A stretch of DNA of 47,412 nt. It comes from an uncultured SAR86 cluster bacterium. GTDB lineage: Bacteria > Pseudomonadota > Gammaproteobacteria > Magnimaribacterales > D2472. Both the position numbers and the translations under genes were made by a program. Position 1 is the stretch's first letter. Each line of letters begins with the position of its first letter. The notes under the pieces are model-generated. The model had not been told where the DNA came from and made no database searches. It worked only from the letters and a program-made list of their open reading frames with translations. Positions 2,628-21,935 of the stretch are shown piece by piece. The DNA lies in the NCBI GenBank assembly GCA_902602185.1, contig CACKPV010000005.1, positions 1 to 47,412 on the forward strand. Reading direction: 5' to 3'.

Positions 2628-5044
2628 AACCTTTAAATATCTCAAAAATTCTATTATGTGTTTTCTTTTCTTTAAACTTATTATCTTTTGAGGATTTTAT
2701 TGTTAATGACATTCGCATAGCAGGCCTGCAGAGAGTTTCTACTGGCAGTATTTTTAACACAATTCCTATCTCAGTTGGAGACAAGATTGATCAAAGAAAA
2801 GTCATTGATATTTCAAAAGCACTTTTTGCTACAGAGCAATTTGATGACATCCAAGTAGGTAGAGACGGCAGAAGCTTAATTATTACTGTAACTGAAAGAC
2901 CATCCATAGCTTCAATAAATATTTCCGGTAACCAGGCTTTAAAAACAGAACAATTACTTGAAAGTTTTACAAATATTGGCATCACAGAGGGTCAGGTTTA
3001 TAAAAGATCGACTTTAGAAAAGATGAGGGCAGAACTTATCCGATCCTATTCATCACAGGGAAGATACGGAGCAGGAGTTGAAATTAATGAAATAAAGCGA
3101 GAAAGAAATAGAATTGCTTTAGACATAGTTATTGATGAAGGGGATAGTGCCAAAATTGCTGGCATCTCAATTTTAGGCAATAAAGTTTTTTCAGATGATG
3201 AATTGAAAGATGTTATGGAATTAAGTGAAGGTAGTTGGCTATCTTTTTTATCTAATGACAATCAATATGCAAGAGAAAAATTACAAGGTGACATTGAAAA
3301 TCTTGAGTCTTTTTATCTCGATAGAGGATTTCTCAAATTTTCCTTGGAATCAAATCAAGTAAGTATTTCAAGAGATAGGGAGAGTATTTACATCTCATTT
3401 ATAATTTCTGAGGGAGAAAAATATACAATTGACAAGGTTGAGGTTATTGGAGACATGCCTCTGGATCCAAATATAGTAGATCCAATTGTAAACTCTCAGA
3501 AAGATTTAACTTACTCTCAAGCACAGATTACACAGATTGAAGAAGTTTTCACAAGTTTTCTTGGAAATGAAGGATATGCTTTTGCAAGTGTAAAAGGACA
3601 ACCCTCTATTGATGATAACAGTTTATTGGTTGATCTGAAGTTTATAGTTGATCCTGGAAAGAGGACTTATGCTAGAAAGATTATCTTTGAGGGGAATGAA
3701 ATAACACAAGATGAGGTGTTAAGACGTGAAATGCGACAATTTGAAGGGGCATGGGCTTCAGATGATTTAATTGAACAATCAAGAGTCAGATTAGAAAGAC
3801 TGGGTTATTTTAAAGAAGTTAATGTTGAAACTATTCCAGTACCTGGTACTGATGATGAGATTGATGTTCGTTACTCCGTTGAAGAGGAAACTACTGGAAA
3901 CATTGGTGGAAATGTGGGGTATAGTGATTTTGGTCTTATGCTTGGATTTAATTTACAAGAGAGGAATTTCTTGGGTTCTGGAAATCAAGTTGGAATTGCA
4001 ATAAATAAGAGTATTTATCAGGAGAATTACAATTTATCTTACTATAATCCTTATTTCACCATCGATGGTGTTAGCCGGGGTTACAGCATTTATTATCGAA
4101 AAACTGATTATGGTGAATTTAATGTTGCTAATTACTTGAGTAACTCTCAAGGTTTAGGTCTGCAATTCGGTTATCCGATTTCTGACACCCAAAGGATCGG
4201 ACTAAACCTTACCTATGATAAAACTGACATAGATCCTGGTACGTTACCTGTTAGAGATATTATTGATTTTTTAAATCAAGAAGGGGATATATTTTCAACA
4301 TTTTCTGCGCAAGTTGTTTGGTCAAGAATGACCTTAAATAGAGGGATGTTCCCAACTGATGGAGCATCAACGGATATACTCCTTCTTTCGACCTTGCCTT
4401 TCAGTGACATAAATTACTATAAAATAAATGTTAGACAGAAATTCTATGAACCTCTGGGTTTTTGGGATTTAGTTTTTGGATTTCAGGGTGAGCTTGGCTA
4501 TGTTGCTCCTTATGGGGATACAGAAATTGTCCCATTCTTCCAGCATTTTTATGCTGGAGGTCCAAGATCTTTAAGAGGTTTTGAGTCAAATACTTTAGGT
4601 CCAAGAGCTACTCCTTCACCATGTTATGAATATGATTCGGATACAGATACTTGTGCACCCCTTGTCGATACAGATTTTGATGGTGTGCCAGACTTTCCTG
4701 CTTACAATCCATATTTATTAAGGCAGAGGGATGATCCCATAGGTGGTGATGTAAAAATTGAAGGAAGCCTCCAACTTATTTTTAAACTTCCCATGGTTGA
4801 GGATCAAAGATCGATGAGAACCGCATTCTTTTTCGATTTTGGAAATGTCTTTGCAATGGAATGCAGAGACTATCAAGTCAGCTGTTATAAACCCTCATTT
4901 GAAGAATTACGTTATTCAGTTGGTGTAGGTTTAACTTGGATTACTGGTTTTGGCCCAATGAGTTTCGCAATTTCTAAACCATATAATGCAGATAGATTTG
5001 AAAGGACTGAGCAGTTTTCATTTACTATAGGTACGGTATTCTAA
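2615..5044 (+). CDS. bamA: Outer-membrane beta-barrel assembly protein BamA (Omp85)
   Basis: BamA is the core of the BAM complex that folds outer-membrane proteins. The 809-residue product has a short signal peptide (about 1-24), POTRA domains over roughly residues 25-420 and a C-terminal barrel ending in Phe, as expected for a beta-signal. The conserved loop-6 motif appears as S-L-R-G-F. Two cysteine pairs lie in the extracellular loops (near residues 670-680 and 749-757), and residues 685-693 form an acidic D-x-D-x-D-G-x-x-D stretch. The start used is GTG at 2615 inside rseP; TTG at 2624 is an alternative. No good ribosome binding site is seen, so coupling to rseP is likely. Confidence 0.95.
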   Translation: MAELKPLNISKILLCVFFSLNLLSFEDFIVNDIRIAGLQRVSTGSIFNTIPISVGDKIDQRKVIDISKALFATEQFDDIQVGRDGRSLIITVTERPSIASINISGNQALKTEQLLESFTNIGITEGQVYKRSTLEKMRAELIRSYSSQGRYGAGVEINEIKRERNRIALDIVIDEGDSAKIAGISILGNKVFSDDELKDVMELSEGSWLSFLSNDNQYAREKLQGDIENLESFYLDRGFLKFSLESNQVSISRDRESIYISFIISEGEKYTIDKVEVIGDMPLDPNIVDPIVNSQKDLTYSQAQITQIEEVFTSFLGNEGYAFASVKGQPSIDDNSLLVDLKFIVDPGKRTYARKIIFEGNEITQDEVLRREMRQFEGAWASDDLIEQSRVRLERLGYFKEVNVETIPVPGTDDEIDVRYSVEEETTGNIGGNVGYSDFGLMLGFNLQERNFLGSGNQVGIAINKSIYQENYNLSYYNPYFTIDGVSRGYSIYYRKTDYGEFNVANYLSNSQGLGLQFGYPISDTQRIGLNLTYDKTDIDPGTLPVRDIIDFLNQEGDIFSTFSAQVVWSRMTLNRGMFPTDGASTDILLLSTLPFSDINYYKINVRQKFYEPLGFWDLVFGFQGELGYVAPYGDTEIVPFFQHFYAGGPRSLRGFESNTLGPRATPSPCYEYDSDTDTCAPLVDTDFDGVPDFPAYNPYLLRQRDDPIGGDVKIEGSLQLIFKLPMVEDQRSMRTAFFFDFGNVFAMECRDYQVSCYKPSFEELRYSVGVGLTWITGFGPMSFAISKPYNADRFERTEQFSFTIGTVF

Positions 5045-5104
5045 TTTTTTTGGGTATTTTTTGAAATTTAATATAGAATATACACTCTAACTAAGGGGTT
5101 CAAA

Positions 5105-5647
5105 ATGAAGTATACAGTTAAAAATATTTTCTTTGTTATTGTTGGTTTTTCAACTTTAGCAATTTACTCTCAAAACATTGCAGTAATTGATATGCGTGCA
5201 GCTGTATTATCAACTCAGGTTGCTCAGGATGCGTTTAAAGCCCTTGAAGAAGAGTCTGAATACTCTTCTATGGTTGAGCAAGCTCAACAATTACAATCTG
5301 ATAGACAGTCTCTTGTTGAGAAACTTCAAAAAGACGGCGAAACCTTATCACCTGAGGAGATTAATTCATTACAAAGAGATGTTCAGGAGAAGACAACAGA
5401 TCTAGAATTTATTCTTGGAAAGATTCAAGCAAAACAAACAGAAACCGTTGAAGTAGTAACTAGGCAACTTGATCCTGCTTTAAGAAAAATCCTTGCAGAA
5501 CTTATTGAAGCCAAACAAATCGAAATTCTTTTAGGATCAGAAAATCCTGTTTTATATGCCAGAGAGTCATTGGTTATTACTGATGATGTAACATCTATGT
5601 TAGATGTGGCTGCTTCAACTTCAGAGGGTAATTCAGATTCTAATTAG
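5105..5647 (+). CDS. skp: Skp/OmpH periplasmic chaperone
   Basis: The 180-residue protein has a signal peptide (about 1-22, ending S-I/Y-S before Q), a short beta segment with N-I-A-V-I-D-M, then a long charged coiled-coil-like helical region rich in Glu, Gln and Lys, followed by another beta segment near the C-terminus. This is the layout of Skp, the trimeric chaperone that carries unfolded outer-membrane proteins to BAM. It lies between bamA and lpxD as in many gammaproteobacteria. An AAGGGG ribosome binding site lies 6-11 nt before the ATG. The 60-nt gap after bamA is AT-rich and may hold a weak promoter. Its TAG shares one base with the lpxD GTG start. Confidence 0.9.
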   Translation: MKYTVKNIFFVIVGFSTLAIYSQNIAVIDMRAAVLSTQVAQDAFKALEEESEYSSMVEQAQQLQSDRQSLVEKLQKDGETLSPEEINSLQRDVQEKTTDLEFILGKIQAKQTETVEVVTRQLDPALRKILAELIEAKQIEILLGSENPVLYARESLVITDDVTSMLDVAASTSEGNSDSN

Positions 5648-17998: not shown

Positions 17999-19312
17999 AT
18001 GAAAAATCAAAATATTAAATTTGCATGGAGACAGTTCAATGAACTTTCTCCCAATGAAATTTATGAAATACTTCATCTTCGACAAAAAGTTTTTATTGTT
18101 GAGCAAGATTGCCCTTATATCGATGCTGATTTTAGTGATCAAGAAGCATGGCATTACTTAGGTTATGAAGGAAAAAAACTTATCTCTTACCTGAGAGTCT
18201 TTCCACCAGGCATTAAGTATGATGATAGCTCGATTGGAAGAATTGTTATTGATGAAAATTCAAGAAACCATGGTTTTGGTAAACAAATTACTCTGGATGC
18301 AATTGCTTTTCTGCAAAAATATTATCCGAATACAGACATTTGTATTTCTGCTCAACATAGGTTGATTGATTTCTATAGAAGACTTGGATTTAAAGAAGAA
18401 GGAGAAGTATATCTTGAAGACGACATTGATCACATTAAGATGCGTTTGAAAGTTATAGCTAAGAAACTTAGCATTCCTCTTGTATTTAACCCAAATAAAT
18501 TCCTGATACTTTCTGCATTACTTGGATTTCTTGGAGCTTTTATTTTTGCCATTGTTGATTTTAATTTTCAATCTATAGATGCTCCTGCAACTGTAAATGG
18601 TTACCCAATAGACACCAAAAGATTCCAAGCTTATTTGTCTGCAGTTGAGTCATCTCGGAAATTTGGTCTGCGTTCAGAGGATAGATTGAATGTCCTTAAC
18701 CTTTTAATTAACGAGGAACTATTGATTCAAAGAGCTAAAGACCTTGGATTAATTGAAAATGATAACGAAATTCGGGATGTGATTACTAGCAGGATGCTTA
18801 ATTACATTATTGAACCCCTTCAAAATAATACAGTCGATGAGTTATCTTTGAAATCATTTTATGAAAGCAACATTCAAATGTTTGCAAACCCTGATCAATA
18901 TTTATTTGAAGAGTGGATTTTTAATAGTGAATTCGAAAGATCAAAATTAGTCGAGTTACTTGAAGCTGATAACTTTTTTAAACCAGATTTTAAATATAAA
19001 AAAACCACAAATAACTGGTTACCAAGAAGTTATGTTTCATTTGAAAAAATTTCCGATTATCTTGGTTCGGAAAAAGCACAGTTATTAACTGAGGTTGAAG
19101 AAAATAACTTTATTTTATTTAGTGATTACCAGAGGCAGGACTTCTCTGTATATTTTCTGATAGACAAGATTTCAAAGCCCCCCAGAGCATTTCAGGAAAT
19201 TAAAGATATTGTAATGATTGAGTATAAGAAATCACAAGAAAATGAAGTTATTGAGGATTACCTCAATAAATTGAGGGAAACTTACACAGTCGAGATAAGC
19301 AATGACTTCTAG
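17999..19312 (+). CDS. Fusion: ElaA-like N-acetyltransferase + membrane anchor + SurA/parvulin-like periplasmic domain
   Basis: One uninterrupted 437-codon frame encodes two different proteins. Residues 1-150 match the GNAT protein ElaA: L-R-Q-K-V-F-I-V-E-Q-x-C-P-Y near residue 28, I-G-R-I-V-I near 79, A-Q-H-R-L-I-x-F-Y-R-R-L-G-F near 118 and E-D-D-I-x-H-I near 140. A hydrophobic segment at about 168-188 follows, then a roughly 245-residue region resembling the N-terminal SurA-like and rotamase part of membrane-anchored peptidyl-prolyl isomerases (V-N-G near residue 200, L-L-I-N-E-E-L-L near 238). The rotamase core looks degenerate. Predicted topology is a cytoplasmic GNAT and periplasmic chaperone. 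It overlaps the HupE gene by 11 nt. An in-frame GAGG precedes the ATG. Confidence 0.8.
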   Translation: MKNQNIKFAWRQFNELSPNEIYEILHLRQKVFIVEQDCPYIDADFSDQEAWHYLGYEGKKLISYLRVFPPGIKYDDSSIGRIVIDENSRNHGFGKQITLDAIAFLQKYYPNTDICISAQHRLIDFYRRLGFKEEGEVYLEDDIDHIKMRLKVIAKKLSIPLVFNPNKFLILSALLGFLGAFIFAIVDFNFQSIDAPATVNGYPIDTKRFQAYLSAVESSRKFGLRSEDRLNVLNLLINEELLIQRAKDLGLIENDNEIRDVITSRMLNYIIEPLQNNTVDELSLKSFYESNIQMFANPDQYLFEEWIFNSEFERSKLVELLEADNFFKPDFKYKKTTNNWLPRSYVSFEKISDYLGSEKAQLLTEVEENNFILFSDYQRQDFSVYFLIDKISKPPRAFQEIKDIVMIEYKKSQENEVIEDYLNKLRETYTVEISNDF

Positions 19313-20132
19313 GATGTTTTTAATTTTACTTTGCTTATTTGGTATCTTTGTAAACACTCACACTCTTAATCCTCAATTAATAAACGAAGTTATAAATGGT
19401 GACTTTAATAGTTTTGAAGATCAAAATTTCTTATTTAGAGACTTTTTTTTTCTTGGTGTTGAGCATATTTTGACAGGATGGGATCATTTAGCTTTTTTAG
19501 TTGGATTAATGTTAATTTTTAGGAGATTTAATCTATTAATTGCTATTACCTGTTTTACTTTAGGTCACTCTATCAGTCTTGCAATGGGCTCGCTGGGTTT
19601 TATTGCTATAAATTCTGCCTGGATAGAAGCTCTTATAGGTTTTTCTGTAGCGCTTGTTGCCATTGAGGCAGCTTTCAAACACCATTTTGAATTTCGCAAT
19701 ATAAAAAGAATTTCTATCATTGGGATATGTTTTTTCGGAATCTTCTTTCTTCTGAAAAAAATTGATTTCATTACCTTTTTTTCTATGTTTTTATTGACCA
19801 TAAGCTATCTTTATCTCAGTAATTATGGATCGAAGAATAGAACCTCTTTTTTGCTGGTAATACTATTTGGATTTATTCATGGATTTGGTTTTTCAACAAA
19901 TTTACAAGAGTATGATCTCCTCCAAAATGATTTCTTGAAAAGTCTCCTTGGCTTCAATTTAGGTGTTGAGATGGGTCAATTATTAATGATTGGTATTGCC
20001 CTTATTGTTGTTATGATCTCCCATATGCAACTCAGCTTTTCTCATATTAGGTTGGCTAAAGTAATGAGTATTTCTTCCCTCTTGTTTTTGGGTATATTTT
20101 GGTTTTCTTATAGAACATTATTGATAATGTGA
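19302..20132 (+). CDS. HupE/UreJ-family membrane protein
   Basis: This 276-residue protein has an N-terminal signal-like segment (about 5-22), a short soluble stretch and about seven membrane helices. Conserved HupE/UreJ features are H-I-x-x-G-x-D-H-L-A-F near residue 57, T-L-G-H-S-I-S-L near 87, I-E-A-L-I-G-F-S near 107 and F-G-F-I-H-G-F-G-F near 189. The His/Asp-rich motifs resemble metal (Ni/Co) binding in hydrogenase and urease permeases, but no such enzyme is in the window, so the substrate is unknown. It is coupled to the upstream ElaA-PPIase fusion by an 11-nt overlap. Confidence 0.85.
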   Translation: MTSRMFLILLCLFGIFVNTHTLNPQLINEVINGDFNSFEDQNFLFRDFFFLGVEHILTGWDHLAFLVGLMLIFRRFNLLIAITCFTLGHSISLAMGSLGFIAINSAWIEALIGFSVALVAIEAAFKHHFEFRNIKRISIIGICFFGIFFLLKKIDFITFFSMFLLTISYLYLSNYGSKNRTSFLLVILFGFIHGFGFSTNLQEYDLLQNDFLKSLLGFNLGVEMGQLLMIGIALIVVMISHMQLSFSHIRLAKVMSISSLLFLGIFWFSYRTLLIM

Positions 20133-20162: not shown

Positions 20163-21935
20163 ATGTCGTATTTTTTGCAAAACTTCAAATTGCTTCCTTA
20201 TAAGAATCTAGCACCTTTTATTCTATCAATTTTCTTTATTGTGAGTTGTGGTGATGGGAATGATGAAAACATTGCACCAATAGAAGTGATTATGTCTGCA
20301 TCTTCTGAGGAAGTTGAATATGAGGAAGAATACACAATTTCATGGGAATCCAATGCAAGTCAATGTTTTGCTACTTCACAAACAGGAGACTGGAATGGAG
20401 AAAAGCCTACTTCTGGTTCTGAAACTTTTCTTGCAAAACGAAGAGGAGTACATAATTTTGGGCTAGATTGTCGAACAAGCATTAATTTTGCTCAAGGTTC
20501 AGTAAATGTGTCCGTTAACAAGACTTTTGAAGAGTATTTTGATTTTGTAGGTTCTGAAATTTATGAGTTAGGTGAAGTAGCCGTTGAATCATTTGATAGC
20601 TTCTTAATTCATGATGTTTCCTTGGGAGATTTTAATCAAGATTTAGCTTTAGATTTGCTCATTCTTGCTGAAGATTTTAAAACAGAAGCATTAGGTGATT
20701 CATCATTTATGTTTATTCTCTATGAGGGTATAAACTTTTATTCACCTTCTGATGATGAAACTCCATCAATAAGTCTTGTTGATTCAAACACATGCTCTGC
20801 TGACAATTTAGCAAGAATTGATATAAATGCTGATGGGAATTTAGACATCATTTCATTTTCAAGTAATGCTAGTGAATCTCTTAACAAGAGAGGGCTTTGT
20901 ATTTTTCTATCTACTGAGGAAGGCTTAATTTTGCAAGAGAATTCCTATTTAGTGAATACGACTTCTCTAGATCTATCCAATATAGCAATAGCCTCTCATG
21001 AGTTATTGGATATAAACGTAGACTCAAATGGAGATGTTCTTTTCTTGGGTAAAGGAGGCACAACTGATTTGCCTTTTTACATTTTAGCTTCTGATTCAAA
21101 TCCTGAAATAAAACTTGCCTCTTCTTTTCAGAATTTAAACCCCTATTCTAGAGCAGAAGGATGTTCTTCAGGACTTTCATATTTATGTGATTGGATTAAT
21201 GAAGATTATGATATTAAAAACTCCGTTTATATATCTGCTGATGGTGATGCTTTGTTTGATATTATGTTATCAGTTAAAAAAACTACTGGACACTCTTATA
21301 TCGCATATACCACAAGGCTTGAGGAAGATATTGACTTTGATTGGTCAGCACCTGTTCATGATGTAATTCAATCTAGCATCTCAAGTGATAATGCATATGC
21401 CCTAAAAATGATGGGATTTGATGCAAATCTAGATGGATTAAATGATTTATTAGTTCTTGAAGGTGGCACTACCAGTGAAGGTAATCTTTTCAAGTTTAGT
21501 TTTCATGAGCAATTAAGCACAGATGATTTCATTGGACTTAATCCAGAAAATAATGGAGAACTAGCTGATGAATTTTTATTCAGTTCACCTTTAAGATTTT
21601 CAAATGAGTTTTTGCGGATTGATCCAAATCTTGACAGTTATTTAGATATCTTTGCACCCTTAACCGAGCTACCTTTCGACCTAAATGTGGCAAATGACCC
21701 CAGACATTTTATCGTCATTAAAAAGACTGTGACATTCGATGAAGAAAATAATGCAACTCAATCTTGGGAAGTCAAAGATTTTTCAGACACTATTAATTTG
21801 GATGCAAACTCCATCCACAATGTTTGGGTGGATTTTGATATAGATCAGGATTTCGATGCTCTTTTAATCAAACCAGGTACAGATTTAAATAACCCTTCCT
21901 TTTCTTTTTCTATACACCTTAACGATTCAAGATAG
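20163..21935 (+). CDS. Predicted lipoprotein with Ig-like domain and seven FG-GAP/VCBS-like repeats
   Basis: This 590-residue secreted protein begins with a hydrophobic signal ending F-F-I-V-S-C29-G, a relaxed lipobox, so it is probably an outer-membrane-anchored lipoprotein. Residues 40-115 resemble an Ig-like domain with S-Q-C-F-A-T-S and W-N-G. Acidic D-x-N/D-x-D-x-x-x-D repeats recur at about residues 149, 217, 280, 355, 416, 484 and 555, spaced 60-75 residues, fitting a seven-bladed calcium-binding beta-propeller of the FG-GAP type. It lies 30 bp after the HupE gene and 5 bp before astA. The function is unknown; surface binding is a guess. No clear ribosome binding site is seen. Confidence 0.78.
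   Translation: MSYFLQNFKLLPYKNLAPFILSIFFIVSCGDGNDENIAPIEVIMSASSEEVEYEEEYTISWESNASQCFATSQTGDWNGEKPTSGSETFLAKRRGVHNFGLDCRTSINFAQGSVNVSVNKTFEEYFDFVGSEIYELGEVAVESFDSFLIHDVSLGDFNQDLALDLLILAEDFKTEALGDSSFMFILYEGINFYSPSDDETPSISLVDSNTCSADNLARIDINADGNLDIISFSSNASESLNKRGLCIFLSTEEGLILQENSYLVNTTSLDLSNIAIASHELLDINVDSNGDVLFLGKGGTTDLPFYILASDSNPEIKLASSFQNLNPYSRAEGCSSGLSYLCDWINEDYDIKNSVYISADGDALFDIMLSVKKTTGHSYIAYTTRLEEDIDFDWSAPVHDVIQSSISSDNAYALKMMGFDANLDGLNDLLVLEGGTTSEGNLFKFSFHEQLSTDDFIGLNPENNGELADEFLFSSPLRFSNEFLRIDPNLDSYLDIFAPLTELPFDLNVANDPRHFIVIKKTVTFDEENNATQSWEVKDFSDTINLDANSIHNVWVDFDIDQDFDALLIKPGTDLNNPSFSFSIHLNDSR

Follow-up and report, generated by a model that had tools for sequence, protein, structure and literature searches.

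The window, the whole 47,412-nt stretch of SAR86 DNA analyzed here, carries on its forward strand a single intact open reading frame of 437 codons that runs from an ATG at position 17999 to a stop codon ending at 19312. Its product combines, in order, an ElaA-type GNAT domain (residues ∼6 to 151), one membrane span (∼165 to 188), a SurA/PEB4-like periplasmic region, and a degenerate parvulin domain, and a HupE/UreJ_2 gene follows immediately (Table 1). The probability that 286 codons would remain free of stops by chance in this AT-rich sequence is ∼1e-8. In the AlphaFold model, the GNAT domain is predicted with a pLDDT of ∼95, and a helix (165 to 185) and an alpha/beta domain (300 to 391) follow. 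The original prediction, made from the letters alone, that one frame unites an ElaA-like GNAT, a membrane segment, and a SurA-like region is thus borne out by the open reading frame, Pfam, and AlphaFold, and domain searches support both family calls.

Table 1. Features of the fused gene and its downstream neighbor in the window
Feature	Coordinates	Strand	Evidence
ElaA-type GNAT acetyltransferase half (residues ∼1 to 153)	17999..18457	+	Pfam Acetyltransf_10, structure match, acetyl-CoA loop R89-x-x-G92-x-G94 kept
Linker and single membrane span	18458..18562	+	Hydropathy peak 168 to 188, AlphaFold helix 165 to 185
SurA_N-like helical chaperone region	18563..18890	+	SurA_N_2/SurA_N_3 above cut-off; profile and fold matches to Cj1289/PEB4/HP0175
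Degenerate parvulin-like domain and C-terminal helix	18891..19309	+	Rotamase_2 below cut-off, parvulin fold (Z 6 to 8), alignments
HupE/UreJ_2 membrane protein	19302..20132	+	PF13795; start overlaps the end of the fused gene by 11 nt

The N-terminal half matches Pfam Acetyltransf_10 over residues 44 to 151 (42 bits, cut-off 23.6), and VIA-align superimposes residues 6 to 151 on Escherichia coli ElaA (PDB 5z6n; Z = 22.6, rmsd 1.3 over 142 residues, 34% identity), with a further match to Pseudomonas aeruginosa 1xeb (Z = 23.8). Structure match and alignments agree on a GNAT fold with the acetyl-CoA loop R/Q-x-x-G-x-G/A: R89, G92, and G94 are invariant in eight fused proteins, and R89 and G94 are invariant in 44 relatives. 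The score against NCBIfam PRK10314 (91.1 bits) lies below that family's equivalog cut-off of 171, which was passed in none of 369 gammaproteobacterial genomes searched, and we therefore use the name ElaA-type rather than ElaA. To our knowledge, the natural substrate of ElaA is not settled. In a screen of E. coli acetyltransferases, overexpression of ElaA stopped growth, and ElaA was hence not assigned there (PMC6199490). We found no paper connecting ElaA with SurA. The originally expected rarity of such a fusion is supported. Of 28 ElaA-like matches in the 369-genome gammaproteobacterial sample, all but the window frame are no longer than 300 aa. All plasmid matches, among those listed, are confined to the ElaA half.

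A hydropathy scan found only one strong hydrophobic segment, residues 168 to 188, in agreement with the single span originally proposed there and overlapping the AlphaFold helix. The positively charged stretch KVIAKK lies immediately N-terminal to it, predicting an N-in/C-out orientation with the C terminus in the periplasm, and relatives in which the genes are split carry the same span at the N-terminal end of the separate PPI. The product is thus most likely a type II membrane protein whose ElaA domain is tethered on the cytoplasmic side and whose predicted chaperone part lies in the periplasm.

A structure search with the whole fused protein listed only GNATs, and the periplasmic half was therefore folded and searched alone. 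In this form it is similar in fold to PEB4/Cj1289/HP0175 and PrsA, with a best Z of 8.6 (to 5ez1) and a Foldseek E of 8.7e-8, and the family profile also reaches Cj1289 (3rgc) by sequence (E = 1.8e-6). The SurA_N_2 and SurA_N_3 models score above their cut-offs at residues 170 to 267 in the whole protein only (31.3 versus 28.5 bits and 29.2 versus 27.2 bits, respectively). Over residues 279 to 403, Rotamase_2 stays below its cut-off (19.8 versus 27), which split orthologues pass at 41.2 and 38.9. In an alignment to HP0175, the window copy lacks both parvulin active-site histidines, those of the first and last strands; the last-strand histidine is retained only in the genera g7, g9, and g10. 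Isomerase activity of the window's periplasmic half is therefore doubtful, and a chaperone role is more likely.

The downstream gene is a clear HupE/UreJ_2 member (PF13795, 136.9 bits; cut-off 24.5). HupE resides in the inner membrane, and its family is known for transporting nickel and cobalt. At 276 aa, the window HupE is shorter than its relatives at this locus (367 to 412 aa), and alignment shows that it lacks an N-terminal periplasmic domain of ∼120 residues. In every examined genome with PPI at this locus, hupE comes after it. The PPI-HupE pair also occurs without ElaA, in the same order and often beside DUF3604, in separate clusters in SAR86 and in other gammaproteobacteria (outside SAR86, the PPI search covered a sample of 274 genomes). 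Given the 11-nt overlap, the constant pairing, and the occurrence of the pair elsewhere without ElaA, the PPI half probably belongs functionally with HupE. Our literature search on PPI-HupE or DUF3604 clusters returned nothing useful.

Many SAR86 genomes have a second, separate PPI-HupE pair, as in loci L155, L156, L158, and L160, with DUF3604 adjoining in L155 and L158; no such second pair was found in the window genome. L191, which comes from another family of gammaproteobacteria, has a PPI-HupE pair at 4698 to 5585 on the reverse strand that closely matches the SAR86 type (E = 8e-37); the part of L191 that was read contains no ElaA match. Farther downstream in the window, positions 20163 to 21935 encode a 590-aa lipoprotein-like protein with only weak FG-GAP matches. 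In the window genus and in g8, this gene sits between hupE (or a lone elaA) and astA/astB-like genes, and it has no match in the other fused loci examined.

The full stop-free fused frame is present in 32 of 203 genomes of the SAR86 order (22 in g9, 7 in g7, 2 in g10, and the window genome). At least 25 fused loci of 433 to 447 aa, many from single-cell genomes, lie on named contigs among the best 80 loci of the contig scan; an initial genome-contig scan with the window protein alone as query gave no match. Thus, the frame is a real, conserved fused gene in part of SAR86. An error of assembly or sequencing that deleted a stop codon near nt 18450, a concern raised with the original prediction, might be suspected from the other members of the window genus, which have elaA alone, but the chance of this is negligible given that the same architecture recurs intact in 31 further genomes, many of them single-cell. 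Together with the fused loci on named contigs, these genomes rule out an assembly error as the source of the architecture.

Pairwise dN/dS is mostly 0.02 to 0.15 in both halves for close species at moderate divergence, very close pairs being noisy and distant pairs reaching ∼0.4 with saturated dS. By this measure, purifying selection acts on each half of the fused protein wherever close relatives allow a comparison, at least in g9, and we infer that the fused product is translated. In pairwise comparisons of fused genes, the linker and span change faster than either domain. Most genomes of the window family (f1), as well as f4, have ElaA alone at the same locus; 3′ of lone elaA genes we found no convincing PPI or HupE remnants (best match, E = 0.001, on the opposite strand).

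In families f2 and f3, elaA, ppi, and hupE are separate genes at the same locus, downstream of leuA, rimI, and a glutathione peroxidase gene (GPx). Most sampled split cases have elaA and ppi overlapping by 4 to 11 nt, and in one the genes are 10 nt apart. In G097 and all nine g16 genomes found, the two share a frame that is interrupted by just one TAA. The original prediction would have taken against itself any relatives in which a stop near nt 18450 separates two genes; such relatives do exist in sister families, but they represent the ancestral state rather than an error. In the g16 loci L207 to L215 (genomes G068, G071, G077, and G517 to G522), the junction reads AAA-TAA-TTG, with the TAA unchanged in nine of nine and no nearby ATG for ppi, as would be expected if ppi is read from a stop-coupled TTG start or by read-through of the TAA.

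In the ElaA tree, the fused g7, g9, and g10 sequences are basal in f1, with lone elaA nested inside, and the window is sister to the lone-elaA members of its own genus in a weak join (89/62). Constraining the fused sequences to one clade is rejected (p-AU = 0.009), as expected under one early fusion followed by losses. The fusion thus appears to be a merged operon, most simply explained by one stop loss at the base of f1 and then at least two losses of ppi-hupE that left elaA alone. The window's PPI half has a very long branch and could not be placed on the tree, so we also weighed the alternative that the window lineage retained the unfused operon and underwent a fusion of its own. The grouping of the window ElaA with unfused ElaA (98/91 support), the rejected monophyly of fused sequences, and the existence of split in-frame arrangements one change away from fusion would all fit such an origin. 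We nevertheless regard it as unlikely, as the locus is the same and linker length is similar in the window, g9, and g10, and one gain with two losses fits the tree without convergence.

The separate PPI already starts with its membrane anchor, so that losing the intervening stop between the cotranscribed genes simply puts ElaA on the cytoplasmic end of what is predicted to be a signal-anchor protein, leaving each domain in its proper compartment. After the merger, ElaA would probably still work on its own as an acetyl-CoA-dependent N-acetyltransferase, with the inner membrane as its new anchor point, and the periplasmic half would probably assist the cotranslated HupE-type protein as its chaperone or holdase, a role suggested by gene order (overlap and constant pairing). 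Functional coupling of the halves would not be required.

The window copy itself may have departed from this pattern. Within its genus, only the window genome, 1 of 10, has the fusion; the otherwise conserved LP..LLP..K.REYIGP motif of PPI is mostly eroded; and a second HupE gene, which six of the other nine members of the genus have, was not found in the window genome, which is 82% complete. Since the frame has stayed intact across a long divergence, the copy is unlikely to be a pseudogene, although its role may have changed. The fast evolution of the PPI-HupE side and the loss of the HupE periplasmic domain in this lineage suggest changed or relaxed use.

Two other readings concern what the fused frame makes. 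One is that it yields two proteins, PPI being freed either by translation from the conserved Met148 within the frame or by cleavage in the linker, such that the genes are fused at the DNA level only. A product begun at Met148 would be 290 aa long, nearly the length of a split PPI (285 aa), and plausible as a signal-anchor protein; with no Shine-Dalgarno-like motif before this methionine, and with its motif conserved also in lone ElaA, we find this quite improbable. The other is a working transmembrane unit, in which the periplasmic half controls the acetyltransferase in response to the state of the envelope or of metals, or ElaA acetylates a membrane partner near HupE. That the window and three genera retain the fused frame, and that each half is under purifying selection, would be consistent with such a unit, but the occurrence of lone ElaA at this locus in f4 and in most genomes of f1, PPI-HupE without ElaA in other clusters, and the fast-evolving linker and span make it very unlikely. 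The strongest version, a regulatory enzyme whose chaperone-like periplasmic sensor has controlled the cytoplasmic acetyltransferase through most of one SAR86 family's history, seems to us highly implausible. The persistence of each half apart from the other indicates that the two activities are separable and argues against obligate coupling. Of the two interpretations offered originally, the merged operon therefore stands, given sister families with adjacent, overlapping, or in-frame abutting genes, and the coupling of acyl transfer to envelope folding is unsupported. Overall, we consider it probable that a stop-loss operon merger joined an ordinary, now tethered ElaA to a HupE-associated periplasmic chaperone, with no coupling needed.

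As either half can also be found on its own, the architecture, though new, looks like joined neighbors of ordinary origin rather than a new machine. At one locus, living relatives display overlapping separate genes, in-frame genes divided by a single stop, the complete fusion, and the subsequent loss of a half, making this a clean example of gene merger. The PPI-HupE pair, often with DUF3604, is a recurring unit of unassigned function in marine gammaproteobacteria. Were the halves shown to cooperate, they would connect acylation in the cytoplasm with folding in the envelope, which would be unusual.

The fused protein can be compared with several known systems. It shares with E. coli ElaA (5z6n) the GNAT fold and the conserved acetyl-CoA loop but adds a C-terminal membrane span and periplasmic domain, and it remains under the PRK10314 equivalog cut-off (91 versus 171 bits). 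Like Cj1289/PEB4 and HP0175 (PDB 3rgc, 3rfw, and 5ez1), it has SurA_N helices, one parvulin-like domain, and a C-terminal helix; unlike them, it is predicted to be membrane anchored, is fused to ElaA, and, in the window copy, is without the parvulin histidines. PpiD of E. coli has an N-terminal inner-membrane anchor and a periplasmic parvulin domain, and the parvulin domain of the fused protein matches that of PpiD (2kgj; Z = 6.5), but PpiD is a longer protein without an acetyltransferase. The DUF3604-PPI-HupE/UreJ_2 clusters contain the same PPI-HupE pair in the same order and differ from the fused locus in having separate genes, no ElaA, and an adjoining DUF3604.
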